Virus record (IMG/VR): IMGVR_UViG_3300042879_001340
Location: 1 to 38,993 of that record
Reading direction: 5' to 3' (one strand)
From: a virus
DNA: 38,993 bases
In this document: positions 5,200 through 18,073 of the stretch, in pieces
How positions within the stretch are numbered: position 1 is the first letter of the stretch
Layout of the letters: every line of letters starts with the position of its first letter
The notes under the pieces: generated by a model
Seen by the model: the letters and a program-made list of their open reading frames with translations, nothing else
The model's database searches: none
What the model was told of the DNA's origin: nothing
Position numbers and translations under genes: made by a program

Positions 5200-6732
5200 T
5201 CAGTGGCCGGCAGCGGACCAGTGGTGGCGGGTCGGCAGCGCGGTGAACTTCGAGACGGTGCCGAAGAAGGCGCTGCCGACGTCGCTGCTCACCGGGAACG
5301 CGAACGTCACGGCGATGGCGTCTGCGGCGTCAGGGGACGCCAGCCCACGGGCCTTCATGTCCTTCTTCGACTCCAGAAAGATCTTGCCCGACGAGTCGGG
5401 CTTGGTGCGCGGGCCGGTCAGGTCGTCTCGAAGCTGTTTGTCCTGTGGCAGGCTGGCGGTCTTGAGCCAGTCCTTGAGCGCGCCCCATAGCTCCGCGCGC
5501 CTGTTGCCCCACATGACGGGCTTCGTGGACTTCCAGCCGAAGTTCACGCCGCGCACCTTATACCGCTGTTCGGTCAGACGGTCAAGGATGCCGTACCCCA
5601 GTCCACCCTCGTCGATCATCGTCAGCGCCGGCCGGAACTCCTCGATGGCCTGGATGACGTGCCCGACGACCGTCATGGTGTCGTCGCCGCGGTAGCGCCG
5701 CAGCGCGATCAGGTTGCGCCCCTGACGGATGGCGATGACCGTGCTGTCCGCGCCCGAGCGCGCCGGGTCCACGCCGATGACGATGGGCGCGCTCTGGTCG
5801 CGCCACGGCTCTCTGGCCATCGCCTCGGCCGCCAGGCTCTGGGGGATGAACTGGTCGTCGTCCGTGGTGGGAAACTGCCCGTAGACCTCGATCCTGGCCT
5901 GCGGGCTGTCCTCGCCGTACTCCGCGATGATCTGCTCGTAGACCGCCTTGTCGGTGTCCTCCACCGTGCGCGAGTCGATCTGCTGCGTCGTCCAGAAATC
6001 CCGCTTGGCGTGGAAGCATTCGTAGAAGTACCCCTGCGCCCGCCGCGGGTTGCTGAACGCCAGCCAGAAGCGGTTGGGCGTGTTCTCCGTCCAAAAGCCC
6101 TGGCTAACGTCCCATATAACGTCCGGTATGCCGCTGGCCTCGTCAAAGATCAGCAGCACGCCGTCTGCGTTGTGCAGGCCCGCGTAGGCGTCCGGGTTCT
6201 CTTCCGACCACAACCGCCCCTCCGCGCCCCAGTACCGCGTGCCCTTGCGTAGATCGCGCTCCACGATTTCGCTCAACCACTTGGCCGGGGTGATCCGCGT
6301 GGCGCTGATCTCCCACCAGTGGCTGCTGATGAGCATCGCCAGCCACTTGGTGATTTCGGCCCAAGTGATCGAGCGTAGCTGCGCCTCGCTGTTGGCGCTG
6401 ATTAGCACACTCGCGCCTATTCGCGTGGTGAGCATCCACAGCACCAGCCACGACACCAGCGCCGACTTGCCGATGCCCCGGCCCGAGGCGATGGCCATGC
6501 GCAGCACCTCATACGCAGCCGCGTAGTCGTTGCGCGCGATGTGGTCGCGGATGTCGCGCAGCACCTTGCGCTGCCAGGCACGCGGGCCTTTGTACTTGGC
6601 CAGCGGCGTGCCGGCTTCCCCCCAAGGGAAGACGAACAGGACGAACTTCTCAGGATCGTTGGCTATCTCGGGCGACCAGAGCTTGGCCATCAGGCTCTGC
6701 TCTTGGGCCGCTGAAAAGCGTGGCTCTTGCAT
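5200..6732 (-). CDS. Terminase large subunit (packaging ATPase and nuclease)
   Basis: Pumps DNA into the procapsid and cuts it. The ATPase domain shows Walker A at about 83-91 (SGRGIGKSA), Walker B LLIFDEAS at 193-200 and a coupling motif FSNPRR at 226-231. The RNase H-fold nuclease domain has its acidic residues in VIGVDPARSG (D322), TMIDEGG (D374) and SPDAADA (D468/D471). The length, 510 aa, is normal. ATG 6732 has GGAG seven bases upstream; a second ATG at 6690 has no such site. The start overlaps the small terminase gene by 83 bp, suggesting coupled translation. All catalytic positions appear intact. Confidence 0.96.
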   Translation of the reverse strand: MQEPRFSAAQEQSLMAKLWSPEIANDPEKFVLFVFPWGEAGTPLAKYKGPRAWQRKVLRDIRDHIARNDYAAAYEVLRMAIASGRGIGKSALVSWLVLWMLTTRIGASVLISANSEAQLRSITWAEITKWLAMLISSHWWEISATRITPAKWLSEIVERDLRKGTRYWGAEGRLWSEENPDAYAGLHNADGVLLIFDEASGIPDVIWDVSQGFWTENTPNRFWLAFSNPRRAQGYFYECFHAKRDFWTTQQIDSRTVEDTDKAVYEQIIAEYGEDSPQARIEVYGQFPTTDDDQFIPQSLAAEAMAREPWRDQSAPIVIGVDPARSGADSTVIAIRQGRNLIALRRYRGDDTMTVVGHVIQAIEEFRPALTMIDEGGLGYGILDRLTEQRYKVRGVNFGWKSTKPVMWGNRRAELWGALKDWLKTASLPQDKQLRDDLTGPRTKPDSSGKIFLESKKDMKARGLASPDAADAIAVTFAFPVSSDVGSAFFGTVSKFTALPTRHHWSAAGH

Positions 6733-7132
6733 CCTGCGTCTCCAGTTCGATCACTTCACTCACGCGCCGCTGCGCGGCTTCCAGCGCCGCCGTGATGCTG
6801 ATCTGCTGCGCCACGTCGATCTGCACCTGCTGCTTGGCCACCCAGCCGTGGGCGTGCTTGAGGATTTCCAGCGCCGCCTTGGCGTCGCCCATCTCGGCCG
6901 CCTCGTGCAACTTCTTGGACAGGGCCATCTCGCCGTCCGCGCGCCCTTTCTGCTCGGCCAGGTCGGCAATCGGGTCCAGTTCGCGCAAGCGCCGGTACTC
7001 GGCCGGCAGCAGCCCGCTTGCCAGCGCCAGTGCGTCCCCCTTGAGCCCTAGCCGCGCAGCGTCGTAGATGCGGTTCAGCACCGCCTCAGTCGCGCGCACA
7101 TCTCGGGTCGTGAGCGGCAAGCTCTTGAACAT
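6650..7132 (-). CDS. Probable terminase small subunit
   Basis: A 160-aa helical protein directly upstream of and overlapping the large terminase. Residues about 16-50 (NRIYDAARLGLKGDALALASGL, then AEYRRLREL) read as a helix-turn-helix DNA-binding region of the kind used by small terminases to recognise the packaging site. Residues 60-125 are helical with heptad-like spacing suitable for ring assembly; the C-terminus is polar. The frame is open far upstream, but that part is Gly/Arg-rich shadow over repeat DNA. The ATG at 7132 has no Shine-Dalgarno, and a TATACT box sits 8 bp before it, so the message may be leaderless. Confidence 0.85.
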   Translation of the reverse strand: MFKSLPLTTRDVRATEAVLNRIYDAARLGLKGDALALASGLLPAEYRRLRELDPIADLAEQKGRADGEMALSKKLHEAAEMGDAKAALEILKHAHGWVAKQQVQIDVAQQISITAALEAAQRRVSEVIELETQDARATLFSGPRAEPDGQALVARDSQRS

Positions 7133-7140
7133 GGCCGCGG

Positions 7141-7169
7141 AGTATACGGCAATGGAATGTCGTTTGCAC
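7141..7169 (-). promoter_or_regulatory. Candidate late promoter before small terminase
   Basis: On the minus strand TATACT (7146-7141) lies 17 bp after GTGCAA (7169-7164), a weak -35. Only 8 bp separate the -10 box from the ATG at 7132, so transcription would begin at or next to the start codon. An A/T-rich block (7171-7191) just upstream could act as an UP-like element. Confidence 0.45.
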
Positions 7170-7266
7170 TTGCAAAAAATAAAAAATTGCTTGTGGCACC
7201 TCCGTTTTTGACACCTGCCCCAGCCGCGTCGATGGGTACCCCCGGGCCCCCCACCCCCGCCAGCTG

Positions 7267-7475
7267 CTAGGCAGCCTAGGCGATCTAGGCTACCGGCTGG
7301 CAGCCGGTAGCCCCCATCTAGGCAGCCTAGGCGCTCTAGGCTATGCATATCGGGGTCGGCCACCCCCTTTCCTGGTGCTAGGCGCTCTAGGCTATCGGGC
7401 CGGGTGCGCCTAACCCGCATACTGGGGGCTGCAGGCGCGGGTGCGAGGGGGCTCGGGGCTATAGGCTATATAGGC
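7267..7475. repeat. Clustered 9-bp CTAGGCNNN repeats (iteron-like array)
   Basis: CTAGGC occurs in tandem at 9-bp spacing: 7267, 7276, 7285; then 7318, 7327, 7336; then 7378, 7387. Corresponding elements are 51 bp apart between clusters (7276-7327-7378; 7285-7336-7387). A fourth, degenerate pair with TAGGC at 7462 and 7471 keeps the 9-bp spacing. CTAG occurs 14 times between 7267 and 7643. Regular short repeats next to an AT-rich segment are typical of binding sites for a replication initiator; the position beside the small terminase gene also allows a packaging-recognition site. No protein coding is convincing here. Confidence 0.85.
7291..7309. repeat. Perfect palindrome inside the CTAG array
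   Basis: TACCGGCTG-G-CAGCCGGTA forms 9-bp arms around one central base and sits between the first and second CTAGGC clusters. It can be a dimeric protein-binding site; a DNA hairpin is possible but the loop is too small for a simple stem. Confidence 0.7.
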
Positions 7476-7582
7476 GACTAGACACCCAAAACAAAATCGC
7501 GCTACCCCATATTGCTCTGTTACATATTGTTACAATTTTTGTTTGGTTCAAGGGGTGATAGATAGACTACCTATATAGCCTA
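7462..7582. other. AT-rich segment between 13-bp inverted repeats (candidate origin core)
   Basis: TAGGCTATATAGG (7462-7474) recurs inverted as CCTATATAGCCTA (7570-7582), 95 bp apart. Between them lies the most AT-rich stretch of the control region (about 7484-7560), with TGTTACATATTGTTACAA containing the direct repeat TGTTACA. Together with the adjacent 9-bp repeats this looks like a DNA unwinding element plus initiator sites. Origin function is inference; a regulatory region between divergent early and late transcription is the main alternative. Confidence 0.5.
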
Positions 7583-7665
7583 GCCCCCTAGGTGGGAGGC
7601 CCCGCGTCAGAGTGCCTAGCGGCATGGCTAGAGTAGGTGCTAGAAAACCGCCCAAGACCCCGCGC

Positions 7666-7695
7666 TTTACTCGGGTAACGAGATAGGCTTACACT
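7666..7695 (+). promoter_or_regulatory. Candidate early rightward promoter
   Basis: TTTACT (7666-7671) and TACACT (7690-7695) are 18 bp apart, giving a leader of about 70 nt before the ATG at 7771. The -35 box overlaps a near-palindrome, TTACTCGGGTAA (7667-7678), which could be an operator. This would drive the small genes up to 10102. Match to consensus is moderate. Confidence 0.35.
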
Positions 7696-7770
7696 ACAGA
7701 TGACCTATCGAAAGCCCTTCAAAACCTAACGGCTATGCGGTATAGGTTGACCTACTCGGAGTGACAAACC

Positions 7771-8470: not shown

Positions 8471-8480
8471 TCCACCCGCC

Positions 8481-8503
8481 TAGGCGCCCCGTGCGGGCGC
8501 CTA
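8481..8503 (+). promoter_or_regulatory. Intergenic hairpin 3, perfect 9-bp stem
   Basis: TAGGCGCCC-CGTGC-GGGCGCCTA is a perfect inverted repeat 10 bp past the stop codon at 8470, ahead of the gene at 8549. It is the third stem-loop placed between genes of this block. No T run follows, so it is not a typical intrinsic terminator. Confidence 0.55.
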
Positions 8504-8548
8504 TGGGGTGCACCAGCGCCAGACCCACACTACATGGAGTGACACGAC

Positions 8549-10184: not shown

Positions 10185-12498
10185 AGCCCTTCACGCGCGC
10201 GATGATTTCCGCGCTACTGGGCGAAGGAAGCTCCAACAGCCGGCGCGCGTCCGACTTTGAGCCCGTCCAGTCGGGCGCGCGGTAGGCGTGGCGCTTCGTC
10301 GGGTGATCCACGCTATAAACCCGGCCCATATCGTGCCAGCCGGCCTCCCTGAGCCCGTGGAACAGCGCAGGGACGACGATTTTGAGGTGCGAGGGGGCCA
10401 GGGCTTGGAGCGTGTCGCAAAGGCCTTGCCACGGGCCGCCAACGACTCCACGGGCAAACGGGCCGAGCCGGTAGGTGGCCTGCTCGACAATCCACGCCTC
10501 AGAGCCGCTCAAACCGGCCTGCAGCATGATGGCCTTAGCTTCCGTCATCATCGGCGCCGCGCCAGGCTGGAACGCCGAAACATCCCGCGCCAGCAGCCAG
10601 CCGGCAATGGCCTCATACCCGCCGGTCTCGTACCAGGCCCACAAGGCGGCGGCAGCGTCTTTCGCCATCGGCTCGCCACCGGACCAAGTGACGAACCATC
10701 GGCGGTCGTCCGATGGCAGGGAGATGGCCGCGCGCTCGTTTGTGAAGGCGACCACCAGCAGACGGTTAAGCGCATCGTAGGGGTGCAGGCCCTTGCGCTG
10801 AATCGGGATCGTCTCAGGCGGGGCGGCCAGGATCGGCTTGAGGGTGTTTTCCAGAGCCCGGCGGTCCCGGGCCTCAGTCTGGCGCAGTTCGTTCAGGACA
10901 AGGACTTCCGACTCGTAAGCGTAGCCCCATTGGCTGGTGATCTCCTCATTCCGCACAAGCGAGACATTCGCCTTGCCCACGGCCCAGAAGAACGGCGCCC
11001 ACAGGGTATCCTTACCCGCGCCCGGCGTGCCCCCGTGCAGGATGCCGTGGTTCACCTTGACGCGCGGGTTCTGCAGCTTGTAGGCCATGACATCCAGCAC
11101 ATGCGCCCGCTCGGCCGCATCGGGGATCAGCGCCTCGGCGTGCGCCAGCCAGCGGCCCACGTCAGCATCCGGCGCCGGGGCGGCCACGGGCCGCGCGTCG
11201 CGCCAGCGGTTGCCGTACACATCCCCGGAGCGCGACACGAGGACCGACTCGCCGGCCGCATAGGTGACGCCCTGCAGCACTCGGCCGCCCTTGGCCTGCC
11301 GGTGTTCGTCATAACAGACTGACGACTCGATCTTCGGGTTCTTGCCATGGATTGAGCGACATGAGATGTGCCGGAAGATCGCATTGAAGTTGCCGCGCGA
11401 CAGTTGCCGGCGCTCCTCAAGGTCGAAGTAAGCGTCATCGGCCACCAGGTAGGCAAAACGATCCCACCAGCCGGCCTTCTCGACCCGTCCGACCTCGCGG
11501 CGCTCGACCTCGGCCAGTGCCTGCGCGGCCTCGGCGGCCAGCTCAGGCGGCGGCGTCAGGCGGCCGATGGTTTGCAGCATGGCGGCCTGCAGCAGTTCGT
11601 CGCGCAGGCCAGGCGTGTGCTTCGGCCCGCCCTGCTCGGCCACCCAATCGAGGAACCACGCGGAATCAAGATCAACGCAATGCGAGTGCAGGCAGCAAAA
11701 CGACCGGCCGGAAGGCAGATAGCGGCCCTCGGGGTTGCCGTCCGTGTGCGAGGCGGCGTTCGGGCACACGACGCCCATCCAGCCCTGCGGATTCGGGCGC
11801 GACAGCACCAGCCCGCGGCTTGACAGCCAGGCGGCCACATCGTCGGCCCCATCGTCGGCCAGGCGCACGGGCTTCGGCCCGCTCGACGAGACGGGCTTGG
11901 GCGTGACGCCCAGCGCGGCGCATATTTCCGCGAGCGAGTATTCCCGCTTGCGGTCGAACTCCACCAGGCGCGCGGCGAACCCGCCCGCGTTGGGCTTGAG
12001 GTTGACCGACCCGGGCAAGCGAAAATTGCGCACCGGGTTGCACGCGCCGGGGTCGGTGTAGCCCGCCTCGGCAATCGCCTCGATGGCGGCGGCATACTCG
12101 GCCTTCGTCGGCTGTTCGCCAAAGGCGTAGCCCCACTGATAGTTGCCGGGGCTCGTCTCCATGATCCATGTCGGGGCCAGCGGCGGCTCCTTGGACTTTG
12201 TGCCGATGTCGTCCAGCATCATCGCCAGCACATACTCGCAGTTCGCCGCGCTGGCGCTTGGCTTGCCCACGATGAAGCGGTCGATCACAAAGCTGGCCGT
12301 ATTGCCAAACCACGCCTCGTCGGCCTTCACCCTGCGCGTGGGCAGGAACGCCGGCCAGGTCGCCTTCACGGCCCCATCGGGGTGCAACTGCACCTCGCCG
12401 CCCTCCCCGCGCCGGGGGGTTTGCCGCACGATCAGGGCCGTCTCGCCCTCGGGGGCCAGCGCGGCCAGCCATTCGATGAACTCTGCTGTCGTTGTCAT
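10183..12498 (-). CDS. Primase-helicase (RepB-like primase plus SF3/DUF5906-type helicase)
   Basis: Likely makes primers and unwinds DNA at the fork. In 771 aa I see an N-terminal archaeo-eukaryotic type primase region: MLDDIGTKS at 94-102 with paired Asp, GNYQWGYAF at 118-126, and RNFRLPGSVNLK at 157-168, a pattern of RepB-like phage primases. A Cys/His cluster at 245-274 (CPN..H.....CCLHSHC) may bind zinc. The C-terminal half is an SF3-type ATPase: Walker A GGTPGAGKDT (489-498), Walker B VLVLNELR (532-539), sensor AFTNERAAISLP (584-595) with an Arg finger-like DDRR. ATG 12498 overlaps the polymerase stop (ATGA). Confidence 0.9.
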   Translation of the reverse strand: MTTTAEFIEWLAALAPEGETALIVRQTPRRGEGGEVQLHPDGAVKATWPAFLPTRRVKADEAWFGNTASFVIDRFIVGKPSASAANCEYVLAMMLDDIGTKSKEPPLAPTWIMETSPGNYQWGYAFGEQPTKAEYAAAIEAIAEAGYTDPGACNPVRNFRLPGSVNLKPNAGGFAARLVEFDRKREYSLAEICAALGVTPKPVSSSGPKPVRLADDGADDVAAWLSSRGLVLSRPNPQGWMGVVCPNAASHTDGNPEGRYLPSGRSFCCLHSHCVDLDSAWFLDWVAEQGGPKHTPGLRDELLQAAMLQTIGRLTPPPELAAEAAQALAEVERREVGRVEKAGWWDRFAYLVADDAYFDLEERRQLSRGNFNAIFRHISCRSIHGKNPKIESSVCYDEHRQAKGGRVLQGVTYAAGESVLVSRSGDVYGNRWRDARPVAAPAPDADVGRWLAHAEALIPDAAERAHVLDVMAYKLQNPRVKVNHGILHGGTPGAGKDTLWAPFFWAVGKANVSLVRNEEITSQWGYAYESEVLVLNELRQTEARDRRALENTLKPILAAPPETIPIQRKGLHPYDALNRLLVVAFTNERAAISLPSDDRRWFVTWSGGEPMAKDAAAALWAWYETGGYEAIAGWLLARDVSAFQPGAAPMMTEAKAIMLQAGLSGSEAWIVEQATYRLGPFARGVVGGPWQGLCDTLQALAPSHLKIVVPALFHGLREAGWHDMGRVYSVDHPTKRHAYRAPDWTGSKSDARRLLELPSPSSAEIIARVKG

Positions 12499-14471
12499 TT
12501 CCCGTATCTCTCCATCGTTTTGATGCCAATGTCCAGCGGCAGACCTGCCGCCCACTCAGGCGGCGTCGTCATCACGCGCCGCATCAGTTCAGTCGTGCCC
12601 TCGGGGTCGGCCGTCTCGCAGACCACTTCGTCGTGGACATGCAGCACGGCCTCGGGCAGAGCCCGCAGCGCCCCGCGCAGCAGATCGTGCGCGGTGGCCT
12701 GCGTGACGTTCTCGCACGCCAGCCCCGGCCACAGGCGGGCTCGGGGCCACTCCTTGGCGTCGGCCGCAGGCTTCCAGGCGGCCTTGGCGTAGCTGATACC
12801 GTCAGAGTCCAGGCGCGCATAGGGGTAGCAGAGGATACGCCCGGACGGCAGCGCATACCAGAGGTGAACCCCGTCAAACAGGTAGGTTATCCGGCCCGCG
12901 CTGAACTCCTGCCCGCGCTTACGCATAGCGGCCATGTAGGCCCGCTCAAGGTCCGACCAGAACGCAGGCGCCCACGGGTTCGCGCGCCGCCAGGCGTTGA
13001 CCATGCGCCGACTCTCGACCTCGGGCAGCACGACGCCGTAGGCGCGGCCCATCGCGTTGAACGCGCCGACGCTCCCCGCGAAGCCGCAGGCCAATTCCTG
13101 CACCTTGCCGAGTTGGCGCTGCGCCGTCGCCTCGGGCTCCTCGTCCTCGTAGCCGGCCAGGATGTCGGCATAGGGGCGGCCAAAGGTCGCAGCGGCGTTG
13201 ACGATGTAGGCGTCCAGGCGCTGCCGGAAGGCGTCCAGTTTGGCCTCGCCCGCGGGCGACTTCGCCAGCCACGGGTTGACCCGGCCCTCGATGGCCGACC
13301 AATCGGCCACGACGAACGAGTGGCCAGGCGCGGGGATCAGCGACGGGCGCAGCATGCCGCGCAGCACGTCGGTTACCCGCTTGCCGAACTGAGGCACGAT
13401 CTGGTGGCCGCGCACCATCGCGTGGCGCACGGCCTGCGGGTCTTTGGCGGTCTTGCGGGTGAAGTTGTGGACTTGCGCCCCGTAGCTGGACGCCCGCCCG
13501 GTGGCCGCGCCGCCCGCGAAGACGAACGCGCCGCGCACCCGGTGGTCTTCCACGTCGGCCAGTTCCTCCAGCCGCTTGAACTTCGCCACGCTGGAGGCCC
13601 AGAGGTCATCGGCGCACTGGATCACGTCAGCGACGTGCGCCGGCACCTCGTCGGGGTTTTCCTCGGCTAGAATCAGTAGCGCGGCACGGACGGACTTGTC
13701 GATGGACTGCTTTTCTTCGCCGTCTTTGTGGACCGTCATCAGGCGCCGCGCCTCGGGGCCGACGCGCTCCCAGACCCACTCGCGCATGCGCGGGCTGCGC
13801 ACGCTGGTGATGACGCCCTCGGTGATCTCCCGCACCTCGGCTTGGATGGCGTCCAGTTCTTGGACGGCGTACTGCTGCGCCGCGCGGCACAGCGCCACGT
13901 CGACCAGCACGCCGCGGTCGTTCACGCGCTCGTTGGCGTGGTAGTCGGCCAGCTCGTCGGCTGACAGGTCGCGCATGGCCTGACTGAACGCCCGCATGGC
14001 CCGCACGTCCTGCTCGCAGTAGGCCGCCATCTCGGCCATCAGCGCCGCGTCCTCGCGGAAGGTGCCATCGGCCTGCGGGATGGACAGCAGCCGGATCAGT
14101 TGCGCGCCCCGGTGATCCTTGCGCATGCCCGCGCCAGCGAACCGGCCCACGTCTTCCAAGCTGCCAGGCGCGCAGTTCGCGCGAGCCTGCGCTGCGGTGC
14201 AATAGAACTGCTCCAGATCGAAGTTGATCTGCAGCACATACCAGAAGATCAACCGCTCAAACGCGGCGTTGTGCGCCCGTATCTGGCCGGTGTGCTGCCG
14301 CACGGCCTCGGGGAATGTCTCGCCGGGGCGCCAGGTGACGACCTCATCGTCGTCGAAGGCGTAGGACATGCACAGCACCTCGGTGCTCATGTCCTGCGCG
14401 TAGTTGTAGACGCCCGCCGCCGTGATGTCCACGCGGGAGCGCGTCTCAAAATCCAGCCAAAGGATCGTCAC
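12495..14471 (-). CDS. Family A DNA polymerase with 3'-5' exonuclease
   Basis: Replicates the phage genome. With a GTG start at 14471 the protein has 658 aa. The proofreading exonuclease is complete: ILWLDFETRS (Asp7/Glu9), AHNAAFERLIFW near 67-78 and AYCEQDV (Asp155). The polymerase domain has GRASSYGAQVHNFTRK near 325-340, motif A FVVADWSAIEGRVN (Asp390), the O-helix region near 455-480, and motif C VHDEVVCE (613-615). All catalytic residues are present. An ATG at 14504 is in frame but would place a terminator-like hairpin in the coding sequence and adds a stretch unlike the family; neither start has a good ribosome site. Confidence 0.95.
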   Translation of the reverse strand: MTILWLDFETRSRVDITAAGVYNYAQDMSTEVLCMSYAFDDDEVVTWRPGETFPEAVRQHTGQIRAHNAAFERLIFWYVLQINFDLEQFYCTAAQARANCAPGSLEDVGRFAGAGMRKDHRGAQLIRLLSIPQADGTFREDAALMAEMAAYCEQDVRAMRAFSQAMRDLSADELADYHANERVNDRGVLVDVALCRAAQQYAVQELDAIQAEVREITEGVITSVRSPRMREWVWERVGPEARRLMTVHKDGEEKQSIDKSVRAALLILAEENPDEVPAHVADVIQCADDLWASSVAKFKRLEELADVEDHRVRGAFVFAGGAATGRASSYGAQVHNFTRKTAKDPQAVRHAMVRGHQIVPQFGKRVTDVLRGMLRPSLIPAPGHSFVVADWSAIEGRVNPWLAKSPAGEAKLDAFRQRLDAYIVNAAATFGRPYADILAGYEDEEPEATAQRQLGKVQELACGFAGSVGAFNAMGRAYGVVLPEVESRRMVNAWRRANPWAPAFWSDLERAYMAAMRKRGQEFSAGRITYLFDGVHLWYALPSGRILCYPYARLDSDGISYAKAAWKPAADAKEWPRARLWPGLACENVTQATAHDLLRGALRALPEAVLHVHDEVVCETADPEGTTELMRRVMTTPPEWAAGLPLDIGIKTMERYGK

Positions 14472-14475
14472 AGTC

Positions 14476-14498
14476 AAAAATGGGGGCCGTAGCCCCCA
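14476..14498 (-). terminator. Terminator or attenuator ahead of the polymerase gene
   Basis: On the minus strand a 7-bp perfect stem (TGGGGGC-TACG-GCCCCCA) is followed by TTTTT, within the 45 bp between the 212-aa gene and the polymerase GTG. Placed inside an operon, it would lower polymerase and primase transcription relative to upstream genes. It includes part of the longer polymerase reading frame, so the start-site choice matters. Confidence 0.65.
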
Positions 14499-14516
14499 TC
14501 CCATGCAAGTTGACGA

Positions 14517-16524: not shown

Positions 16525-16812
16525 ATGCTGGAAAAAGACATAGAAGCCTATCTCGTTCGCCGCGTCAAGGACGCTGGCGGGCGGGCGTACAAGTTCGTGA
16601 GCCCCGCCCACCGAGGCGTGAGCGACCGCATCGTCGTGCTGCCAGGCGGACGCATCTGGTTTGTTGAGGTCAAGCAGATGGGCGGGCGGCTGTCGCCGCT
16701 GCAGCGCGTGTTCCTCGACGAGATCAAGGGGCTGGGGTGCAACTACGAAATCGTGTGGTCTAAGGAGGACGTTGATGCTTTCATTGCGCGAGTATCAGAA
16801 CCAGGCGGCTGA
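16525..16812 (+). CDS. VRR-NUC domain nuclease
   Basis: A 95-aa stand-alone nuclease of the VRR-NUC type, found with phage and eukaryotic FAN1-like DNA repair enzymes. The motif HRGVSDRIVVLPGG (29-42) supplies Asp34, and WFVEVK (45-50) supplies Glu48 and Lys50 of the PD-(D/E)XK core, with Gln60 in the following helix (LSPLQR). Probably a structure-specific endonuclease acting on branched or flapped DNA together with the helicase that overlaps it. No Shine-Dalgarno is visible before the ATG, while a -10 box sits 6 bp upstream, so translation may be leaderless. Confidence 0.92.
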   Translation: MLEKDIEAYLVRRVKDAGGRAYKFVSPAHRGVSDRIVVLPGGRIWFVEVKQMGGRLSPLQRVFLDEIKGLGCNYEIVWSKEDVDAFIARVSEPGG

Positions 16813-18073
16813 CTTCCTCTACGAGCGTGACCGGGCGCTGGTGCTGGCGCCGGTCGGCGCGGGCAAGACCGCGATCACGCTCACGGCCATGCGCGACATG
16901 GTGCAAAACGAGAGCACGCGCTGGCTGGTGCTCGCGCCGCTGCGCGTGGCCGAGCATGTGTGGCCAGTCGAGGCCGCGAAGTGGACGCCCGACCTCAAGG
17001 TGCGCGTGGCCGTGGGCTCGCCCCAGCAGCGCATCTCGGCGCTGTACGACCGCCACGCCGACGTGGTGGTGCTGAACTACGACAACCTGCAGTGGGCGGC
17101 TGAACTCGACCTGAGCGAGTTCAACGGCATCGTCTTCGATGAACTCACGCGCCTCAAAAACCCGAGCGGCAAGCGGTTCAAGGCGCTGGAGAAGGTCATC
17201 AAGGGCATGGAGATTCGCTGGGGCCTGACAGGCTCCTTCACCAGCAACGGTCTGGAGGATGTTTTCGGCCAGTGCAAGATCGTTGACCAGACCATGCTCG
17301 GCCGCAGCAAGGGCGCGTTCCAGCAACAGTATTTCTTCCAGCGTGTGCGGGGCACGCACACCGAGTGGGAGGCGATGCCGGGGTCGCTGGAGCGCGTGAT
17401 GAAGCGCGTCAAGCCGTGGACATTCCTGCTGGAACCAGGCGAGTACAAGGACAAGCTCCCGCCGCTGCACACGGTCGAGGTGCCGCTCACGATGGAGATG
17501 CGCGAGTACGAGGAGATGCGCAAGAACTTCGTGCTGCAGTTCCCTGACGAGACGGCGGTGGCTGAGAGCGCGGCGGTCGTGACGCAGAAGCTCCAGCAGC
17601 TTGCCGCTGGGTTCATCTACACGGGCAACGCCGCGCGGCTGTTGTCGTCGCACAAGTACGACGCGCTGGAAGACCTGCTGGCCGAGAACCAGCGCGCACC
17701 CACCATCGTCTGGTATCAGTACGTCGAGCAGCGCGACGAGTTGCTGCGCCGCTTGCCGCAGGCCGTTGATGCCAAAACGGCCGGGGCCATCGATGCATGG
17801 AACGCCGGCAAGGTCGAGGTGCTGCTGGCGCACCCGGCGTCGGCTGGGCACGGCCTGAACCTGCAGCACGGCGGGCACCACATGGTGTGGCTGTCGCTGC
17901 CGTGGTCGCTGGAGTTGTACGAGCAGGCCATCGGCCGGCTGCACCGCAGCGGCCAGGCGCGAGAGGTGTGGAACTATGTGCTGCTGACCGACAACACCAT
18001 TGACAAAAAGATTTTGACATCTCTGCAAGACAAGCGTAGTCTTGCATCACTTGCGCTGGAGGCGCTGAAATGA
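16775..18073 (+). CDS. SNF2-type DEAD/DEAH-box helicase
   Basis: A 432-aa superfamily 2 helicase or translocase that probably acts with the VRR-NUC protein on replication or recombination intermediates. Walker A is LAPVGAGKTAITL near 24-36, motif II IVFDELTRLKN near 116-126 (DELT in place of DEAH), motif III LTGSF near 147, and motif VI EQAIGRLHRSGQ near 384-395, the SNF2 signature. Length is typical for these phage enzymes. ATG 16775 has AAGGAGG six bases upstream and overlaps the nuclease gene by 38 bp; the longer open frame upstream is shadow of the nuclease. Confidence 0.93.
   Translation: MLSLREYQNQAADFLYERDRALVLAPVGAGKTAITLTAMRDMVQNESTRWLVLAPLRVAEHVWPVEAAKWTPDLKVRVAVGSPQQRISALYDRHADVVVLNYDNLQWAAELDLSEFNGIVFDELTRLKNPSGKRFKALEKVIKGMEIRWGLTGSFTSNGLEDVFGQCKIVDQTMLGRSKGAFQQQYFFQRVRGTHTEWEAMPGSLERVMKRVKPWTFLLEPGEYKDKLPPLHTVEVPLTMEMREYEEMRKNFVLQFPDETAVAESAAVVTQKLQQLAAGFIYTGNAARLLSSHKYDALEDLLAENQRAPTIVWYQYVEQRDELLRRLPQAVDAKTAGAIDAWNAGKVEVLLAHPASAGHGLNLQHGGHHMVWLSLPWSLELYEQAIGRLHRSGQAREVWNYVLLTDNTIDKKILTSLQDKRSLASLALEALK

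Follow-up and report, generated by a model that had tools for sequence, protein, structure and literature searches.

A phased array of short repeats in the divergent gap of an uncultivated podovirus: a putative iteron-type origin whose word differs among relatives

Results

Genome and gene setting

The window, that is, the whole stretch of DNA that we analysed, covers its IMG/VR virus record from end to end (38,993 bases, 65% GC) and represents a podovirus of the polA/primase-helicase kind. Its replication module encodes a RepB-type primase fused to a DUF5906 helicase and a family A DNA polymerase, together with a DUF2800/PD-(D/E)XK nuclease, a VRR nuclease and an SNF2-type helicase; outside this module the window codes for a large terminase, a capsid region and a tail spike. 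The minus strand carries the terminase, primase and polymerase genes, the plus strand a series of small early genes, and a divergent gap separates the small terminase-like gene from the first early gene (Table 1). A minus-strand ORF at 16781-18028 was discarded as an antisense artefact of the SNF2-type helicase gene at 16661-18073. None of the bacterial genome contigs searched for the primase carried it, and we therefore identified neither a host nor a prophage.

Table 1. Features of the divergent gap and of the genes around it (window coordinates).
Feature	Position	Strand	Basis or remark
Large terminase gene	5200-6732	-	PHROG 2, E 9e-42
Small terminase-like gene	6650-7132	-	By position and relatives so annotated; weak terminase PHROG match
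Divergent gap, proposed origin/control region	7133-7770		Small terminase gene (-) to first early gene (+); starts read from sequence
Module 1, CTAGGC x3 (7267, 7276, 7285)	7267-7290	+	9-bp steps; cores kept in siblings L147-L153 and L188
Perfect 25-nt palindrome GGCTACCGGCTG-G-CAGCCGGTAGCC	7288-7312		Between modules 1 and 2
Module 2, CTAGGC x3 (7318, 7327, 7336)	7318-7341	+	51 bp past module 1
Imperfect hairpin GGGGTCGGCCACCCC	7352-7366		Between modules 2 and 3; sequence and folds
Module 3, CTAGGC x2 (7378, 7387)	7378-7392	+	
Module 4, TAGGC x2 (7462, 7471; TAGGCTATATAGGC)	7462-7475	+	
AT-rich stretch, candidate DNA unwinding element	7483-7560		Richest 60-bp window 70% AT
Inverted pair, CCTA at 7570 and 7579 (9-bp step), then CCTAGG at 7587	7570-7592	-	
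CTAG x3 at 12-bp steps (7616, 7628, 7640)	7615-7644	-	Similar triple in L008, L010, L011
Scattered TAGG/CCTA words adjoining first early gene	7684-7755		
First early gene, 64 aa	7771-7965	+	No assigned function
Primase-helicase gene: RepB-type primase domain, DUF5906 helicase domain, predicted C-terminal winged helix	10183-12498	-	Start codon inferred from relatives
Family A DNA polymerase gene, replication-module neighbour	12495-14504	-	PHROG 17, E 3e-80

The array in the window

The preliminary description of this DNA had reported CTAGGC elements at exact 9-bp steps in three clusters, with corresponding elements 51 bp apart, a fourth pair that keeps the 9-bp step, 14 occurrences of CTAG in 377 bp, and a position beside the small terminase gene and an AT-rich stretch. 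Each of these observations was borne out: CTAGGC stands eight times on the plus strand, the registers 7276-7327-7378 and 7285-7336-7387 are exact, the fourth pair is reduced to TAGGC, and the 14 CTAG are counted within 7267-7643. The array is larger than first described, filling the divergent gap, whose 635 bp hold 24 TAGG or CCTA where 1.7 are expected. The AT-rich stretch sits between the pair at 7462-7474 and a 13-nt perfect inverted copy of that pair on the opposite strand (CCTATATAGCCTAG, 7570-7583).

The density and phasing of the array exceed chance. In 20,000 dinucleotide shuffles of this GC-rich segment, CTAGGC occurred 1.2 times on average and never more than 7 times, compared with eight in the real 209 bp. 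Exact 5-mer repeats at lag 9 number 13, whereas 200 Markov simulations averaged 1.4 and peaked at 6; the strongest self-match of the array region is at lag 51. CTAG is depleted elsewhere in the window, because the whole window holds 29 against the 62 expected from dinucleotide shuffles, and 14 of the 29 lie in the 377-bp interval. All the 9-bp-stepped TAGGC pairs of the window fall within the array region. An Rfam search gave no match, a promoter and terminator scan found none, and there is no extreme of GC skew at 7.3 kb. We also observed, between early genes at 8478-8510, a hairpin with inverted CTAGGC (GCCTAGGCGCCCCGTGCGGGCGCCTATGGGG).

Relatives keep the grammar and change the word

Relatives were fetched through the large terminase (80 contigs) and through the primase (53 contigs). 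The same array is carried by eight sibling contigs, the primases of which are about 98% identical to that of the window. Between siblings and window the TAGG/CCTA cores are 92% identical, compared with 77% at the other positions of the same stretch, and the steps are fixed at 9 bp while the bases between the words vary. The palindrome between modules 1 and 2 is almost invariant in the siblings but not general across the family, and hairpins, considered as a general feature of the array, are restricted to the window's subgroup.

In wider relatives, the same gap holds arrays built from other words: TGTGGGCAA, TGTGGACAA, TGTTAGTCA, TGTTGGCTA, ATGGGTCAA, GGGGTAGTT and others. Placed in register, many words are nonamers near TGTNGGCAA, namely the first five of these together with TGTGGGTCA, TGTAGGCAA and TGTTGTCAA; among the more divergent words are GGGGTAGTT and the window's own TCTAGGCGC. 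The words step by 9 bp or, in another subgroup, by 10 bp, and an inverted word often comes after a stepped block. Thus the check proposed at the outset, that spacing be conserved while the intervening bases are not, came out so in the siblings and in the wider relatives. Orientation changes across the AT-rich stretch, with 233 plus and 78 minus words to its left and 63 plus and 109 minus words to its right. Stepped pairs are confined to the array region in five long genomes, the window included; single words occur elsewhere in the long genomes at 0.06-0.95 per kb.

The array goes with the RepB-type primase-helicase module. Across 65 loci that have this gene, lags 9 and 10 top all lags from 9 to 69 (38 and 29 loci respectively), and the median array score is 8, against 2 at 17 loci without the primase (P = 1e-6, a value that overstates the evidence since the loci are related, and with short contigs among the 17, where the primase gene could be missing). 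The score is low at eight of the 65. TL-2011b and MW202898, which are more distant by large terminase, have no 9-bp arrays.

Several array words are similar to the DnaA box TGTGGATAA. A DnaA box near iteron-type origins is common, though not universal. The only strict DnaA box of G016 and that of G017 fall in the array region, as does one of the two in G024; the window has no DnaA box.

Two further features of the gap were seen in subsets of relatives. Tandem expansions of 7-, 8- and 15-bp units, different in each phage, lie beside the iterons of L012, L014, L023 and L030; they fit repeat turnover, for which the gap upstream of the small terminase in these phages is a hot spot. A consensus LexA box (TACTGTATATATATACAGTA), which the window lacks, occupies the AT-rich array centre of L007, L014 and L116-L121 (genomes G001, G003, G013, G014, G015 and G027, the last with one mismatch); the host SOS response may control the early genes or the origin in these relatives.

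The primase-helicase

The primase-helicase gave a profile match to the helicase region of the NrS-1 PrimPol (E 4e-10). A model of the whole protein has moderate confidence (mean pLDDT 62), and the fold of its primase part resembles those of the S-2L PrimPol and of RepB' of RSF1010. Modelled alone, the C-terminal domain adopts a winged-helix topology (mean pLDDT 86), with fold matches at Z 7 or less, values at which the fold is a common one; a Foldseek search with this winged-helix model alone gave no match under E 0.001, and the matches listed did not include P4 alpha. An initiator role for the protein is plausible by analogy, because both P4 alpha (PMC4234260) and the SaPI-type Rep helicases (PMC7581432) read origin repeats with their C-terminal domains.

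Which protein reads the word

The preliminary description had offered sites read by the small terminase as one explanation, and the gene for this protein does lie close, about 135 bp from where the array starts. Packaging (pac) sites of this kind are nevertheless extremely unlikely. L033 and L034 have identical small terminases and different words, which rules out reading by this protein, and over five phages of both word types the small terminase differs by 0-2 residues.

Nor can the primase-helicase be the sole setter of the word. Between L030 (TGGGTCA) and L034 (GGGGTAG), an array of about 460 bp is replaced between flanks that are 96% and 84% identical. The primase-helicase of L030 is nonetheless nearer to that of L034 than the latter is to that of L035, which also has GGGGTAG, and the C-terminal 420 residues of the L030 and L034 proteins are nearly identical despite the different words. 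A chimeric assembly is unlikely, because each of the two word types recurs, in three contigs that come from different samples. In a tree of 41 primase sequences the words cluster by descent, with 15 changes compared with 27.5 in shuffles, and are not locked to it. The array swap beside a nearly identical primase-helicase therefore leaves either a reader that is unlinked or belongs to the host, or loose reading by the primase-helicase combined with drift of the repeats. Loose reading has a precedent, as the NrS-1 primase accepts TTTGGTTA or simply GTG (PMC8718748). We consider loose reading with joint repeat drift somewhat more likely than an unlinked or host reader that swaps with the array.

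A dedicated reader, swapped or evolving together with the array and so creating compatibility groups within one phage family, is a variant of the origin reading that need not exclude it; we regard it as possible but doubtful. The L030/L034 replacement favours such a reader, and the satellite PLE offers a known case in which iterons and initiator are swapped under attack (PMC8263062). However, no gene between array and primase is common to all three GGGGTAG phages and missing from L030, and none of the early-gene families compared tracks the word. One lead is a small winged-helix protein encoded after the SNF2 helicase in G027 (L121:13184-13597) and G015 (L118:5126-5413), the recognition helices of which differ (SRSTVNKAL and SRSTVRRAL), as do the words of the two phages. 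It was found in these two genomes only, and the L030 and L034 contigs stop before its expected place.

Two other candidates were rejected as general readers. MW202483, with array words TGTAAACAA, encodes a small DnaA-domain-IV-like protein that lacks an ATPase domain (L003:7083-7379), and is alone in this among the 50 records searched. A conserved 120-aa protein encoded after the portal is present in all members and is conserved whatever the word.

Discussion

A putative replication origin

We propose that the array probably serves this phage as an iteron-type replication origin and control region, a reading drawn from sequence comparison. Such origins combine several direct repeats at fixed helical spacing, an adjoining AT-rich unwinding stretch and occurrence with a replication-initiator gene module; the window has the first two, the stretch lying at 7483-7560, and the related loci show the third. 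A DNA-binding protein would occupy short words whose spacing, 9 bp in the window and 9-10 bp in relatives, is close to one helical turn. Blocks of these words flank the AT-rich stretch, which the crowded complex would bend and open. The phage primase-helicase might then be loaded at the opened DNA and prime there for the phage DNA polymerase. The preliminary description had suggested initiator sites of an origin, and that suggestion gains from the position, grammar, AT-rich centre, orientation flip, confinement and module association of the array; the part that fails, in the clean case of L030 and L034, is the simple version in which the primase-helicase sets the word. The strict DnaA boxes in the array regions of G016, G017 and G024 and the likeness of the gene to PrimPol-helicases also speak for an origin; against one stand the lack of a GC-skew extreme at 7.3 kb, the lack of a DnaA box in the window and the eight low-scoring loci with the primase.

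The same gap is a divergent promoter region, and the array could instead be an operator at which a phage or host regulator controls the early and late promoters, with no part in replication. In relatives a single word stands just 5' of a TTGACA-like early promoter, the LexA box lies in the gap of several of them, and some members encode candidate regulators: the winged-helix protein of G015 and G027, the DnaA-domain-IV protein of MW202483 and a repressor-like protein in OR003940. Yet more than 20 sites at 9-10 bp steps around an AT-rich stretch exceed the usual operator, stepped pairs occur at no other promoter of the long genomes, the presence of the array follows the replication module, and the members searched, many of them incomplete contigs, yielded no family-wide regulator. 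We therefore find an operator array rather unlikely. Neutral turnover of short repeats in a hypervariable gap would account for the tandem 7- to 15-bp expansions seen there in relatives, but it does not explain why cores are kept while flanks change, or why phages with different words share spacing and orientation; a functionless array is very improbable.

Comparison with known systems

The SaPI/PICI and SCCmec origins also consist of several short words, read there by the Rep or Cch2 helicase itself, which opens an origin beside its own gene; Cch2 requires the 5-nt iteron AAGTG (PMC7581432). The protein described here may be a superfamily 3-like helicase with a C-terminal winged helix, as in the SaPI/P4 type (DUF5906, homology to the NrS-1 helicase, and the C-terminal winged-helix model, with fold matches at Z 7 or less). 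Unlike in the SaPI/PICI and SCCmec systems, the array lies about 3 kb from the primase-helicase gene, beside the terminase gene, and its word changes without a change in the primase-helicase, so that word specificity does not follow the helicase (L030 compared with L034). Phage P4 alpha likewise joins primase and helicase in one protein with a C-terminal winged helix, predicted in our case, and acts at origin repeats (PMC4234260), but its primase is of the Toprim type rather than the archaeo-eukaryotic RepB type, and here the word does not follow the winged helix.

With RSF1010 the phage shares a RepB'-like primase and an array of hairpins plus iterons. The RSF1010 origin works with RepC iterons, the RepA helicase and the RepB' primase. 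There a separate protein, RepC, reads the iterons (PMC4234260), whereas we found no RepC here. NrS-1 has a homologous helicase region, a similar primase fold and a short G-rich word that is loosely read; its TTTGGTTA or GTG sites, however, are priming sites on template strands, and phased double-strand arrays are not described in the accessible part of that report (PMC8718748). In the origin of the Vibrio cholerae satellite PLE, as here, iterons differ between close relatives, but that origin covaries with RepA (PMC8263062), and we found no protein that tracks the word.

Implications of a changing word

The array is ordinary in design. What is unusual is the replacement of the word without a change in the grammar or in the known replication genes. 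A possible but doubtful reading is that the family exchanges its origin's address word in cassette form, with no tie to terminase or primase-helicase, with the grammar fixed and a reader that is as yet undescribed. A word replaced in this way would mean that close relatives may hold origins that are mutually incompatible or mutually invisible, and the words may sort co-infecting phages into compatibility groups; satellites or co-infecting phages possibly drive the replacement.

What emerges is a putative origin in a group of uncultivated podoviruses that encode PrimPol-helicases; their arrays form a natural series in which more than ten origin words share one fixed layout. With such a series, it becomes testable what sets iteron specificity and whether the word can change before its reader.

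Two minor observations concern genes of the relatives. An early gene that by eye resembles a DNA polymerase sliding clamp is present in L030 (3696-4337), L034 (3640-4281) and L031 (1962-2609) and absent in other relatives. When the small proteins of G027 and G015 were aligned, one of them matched the anti-CRISPR family AcrF31 (Pfam, E 6.5e-8).
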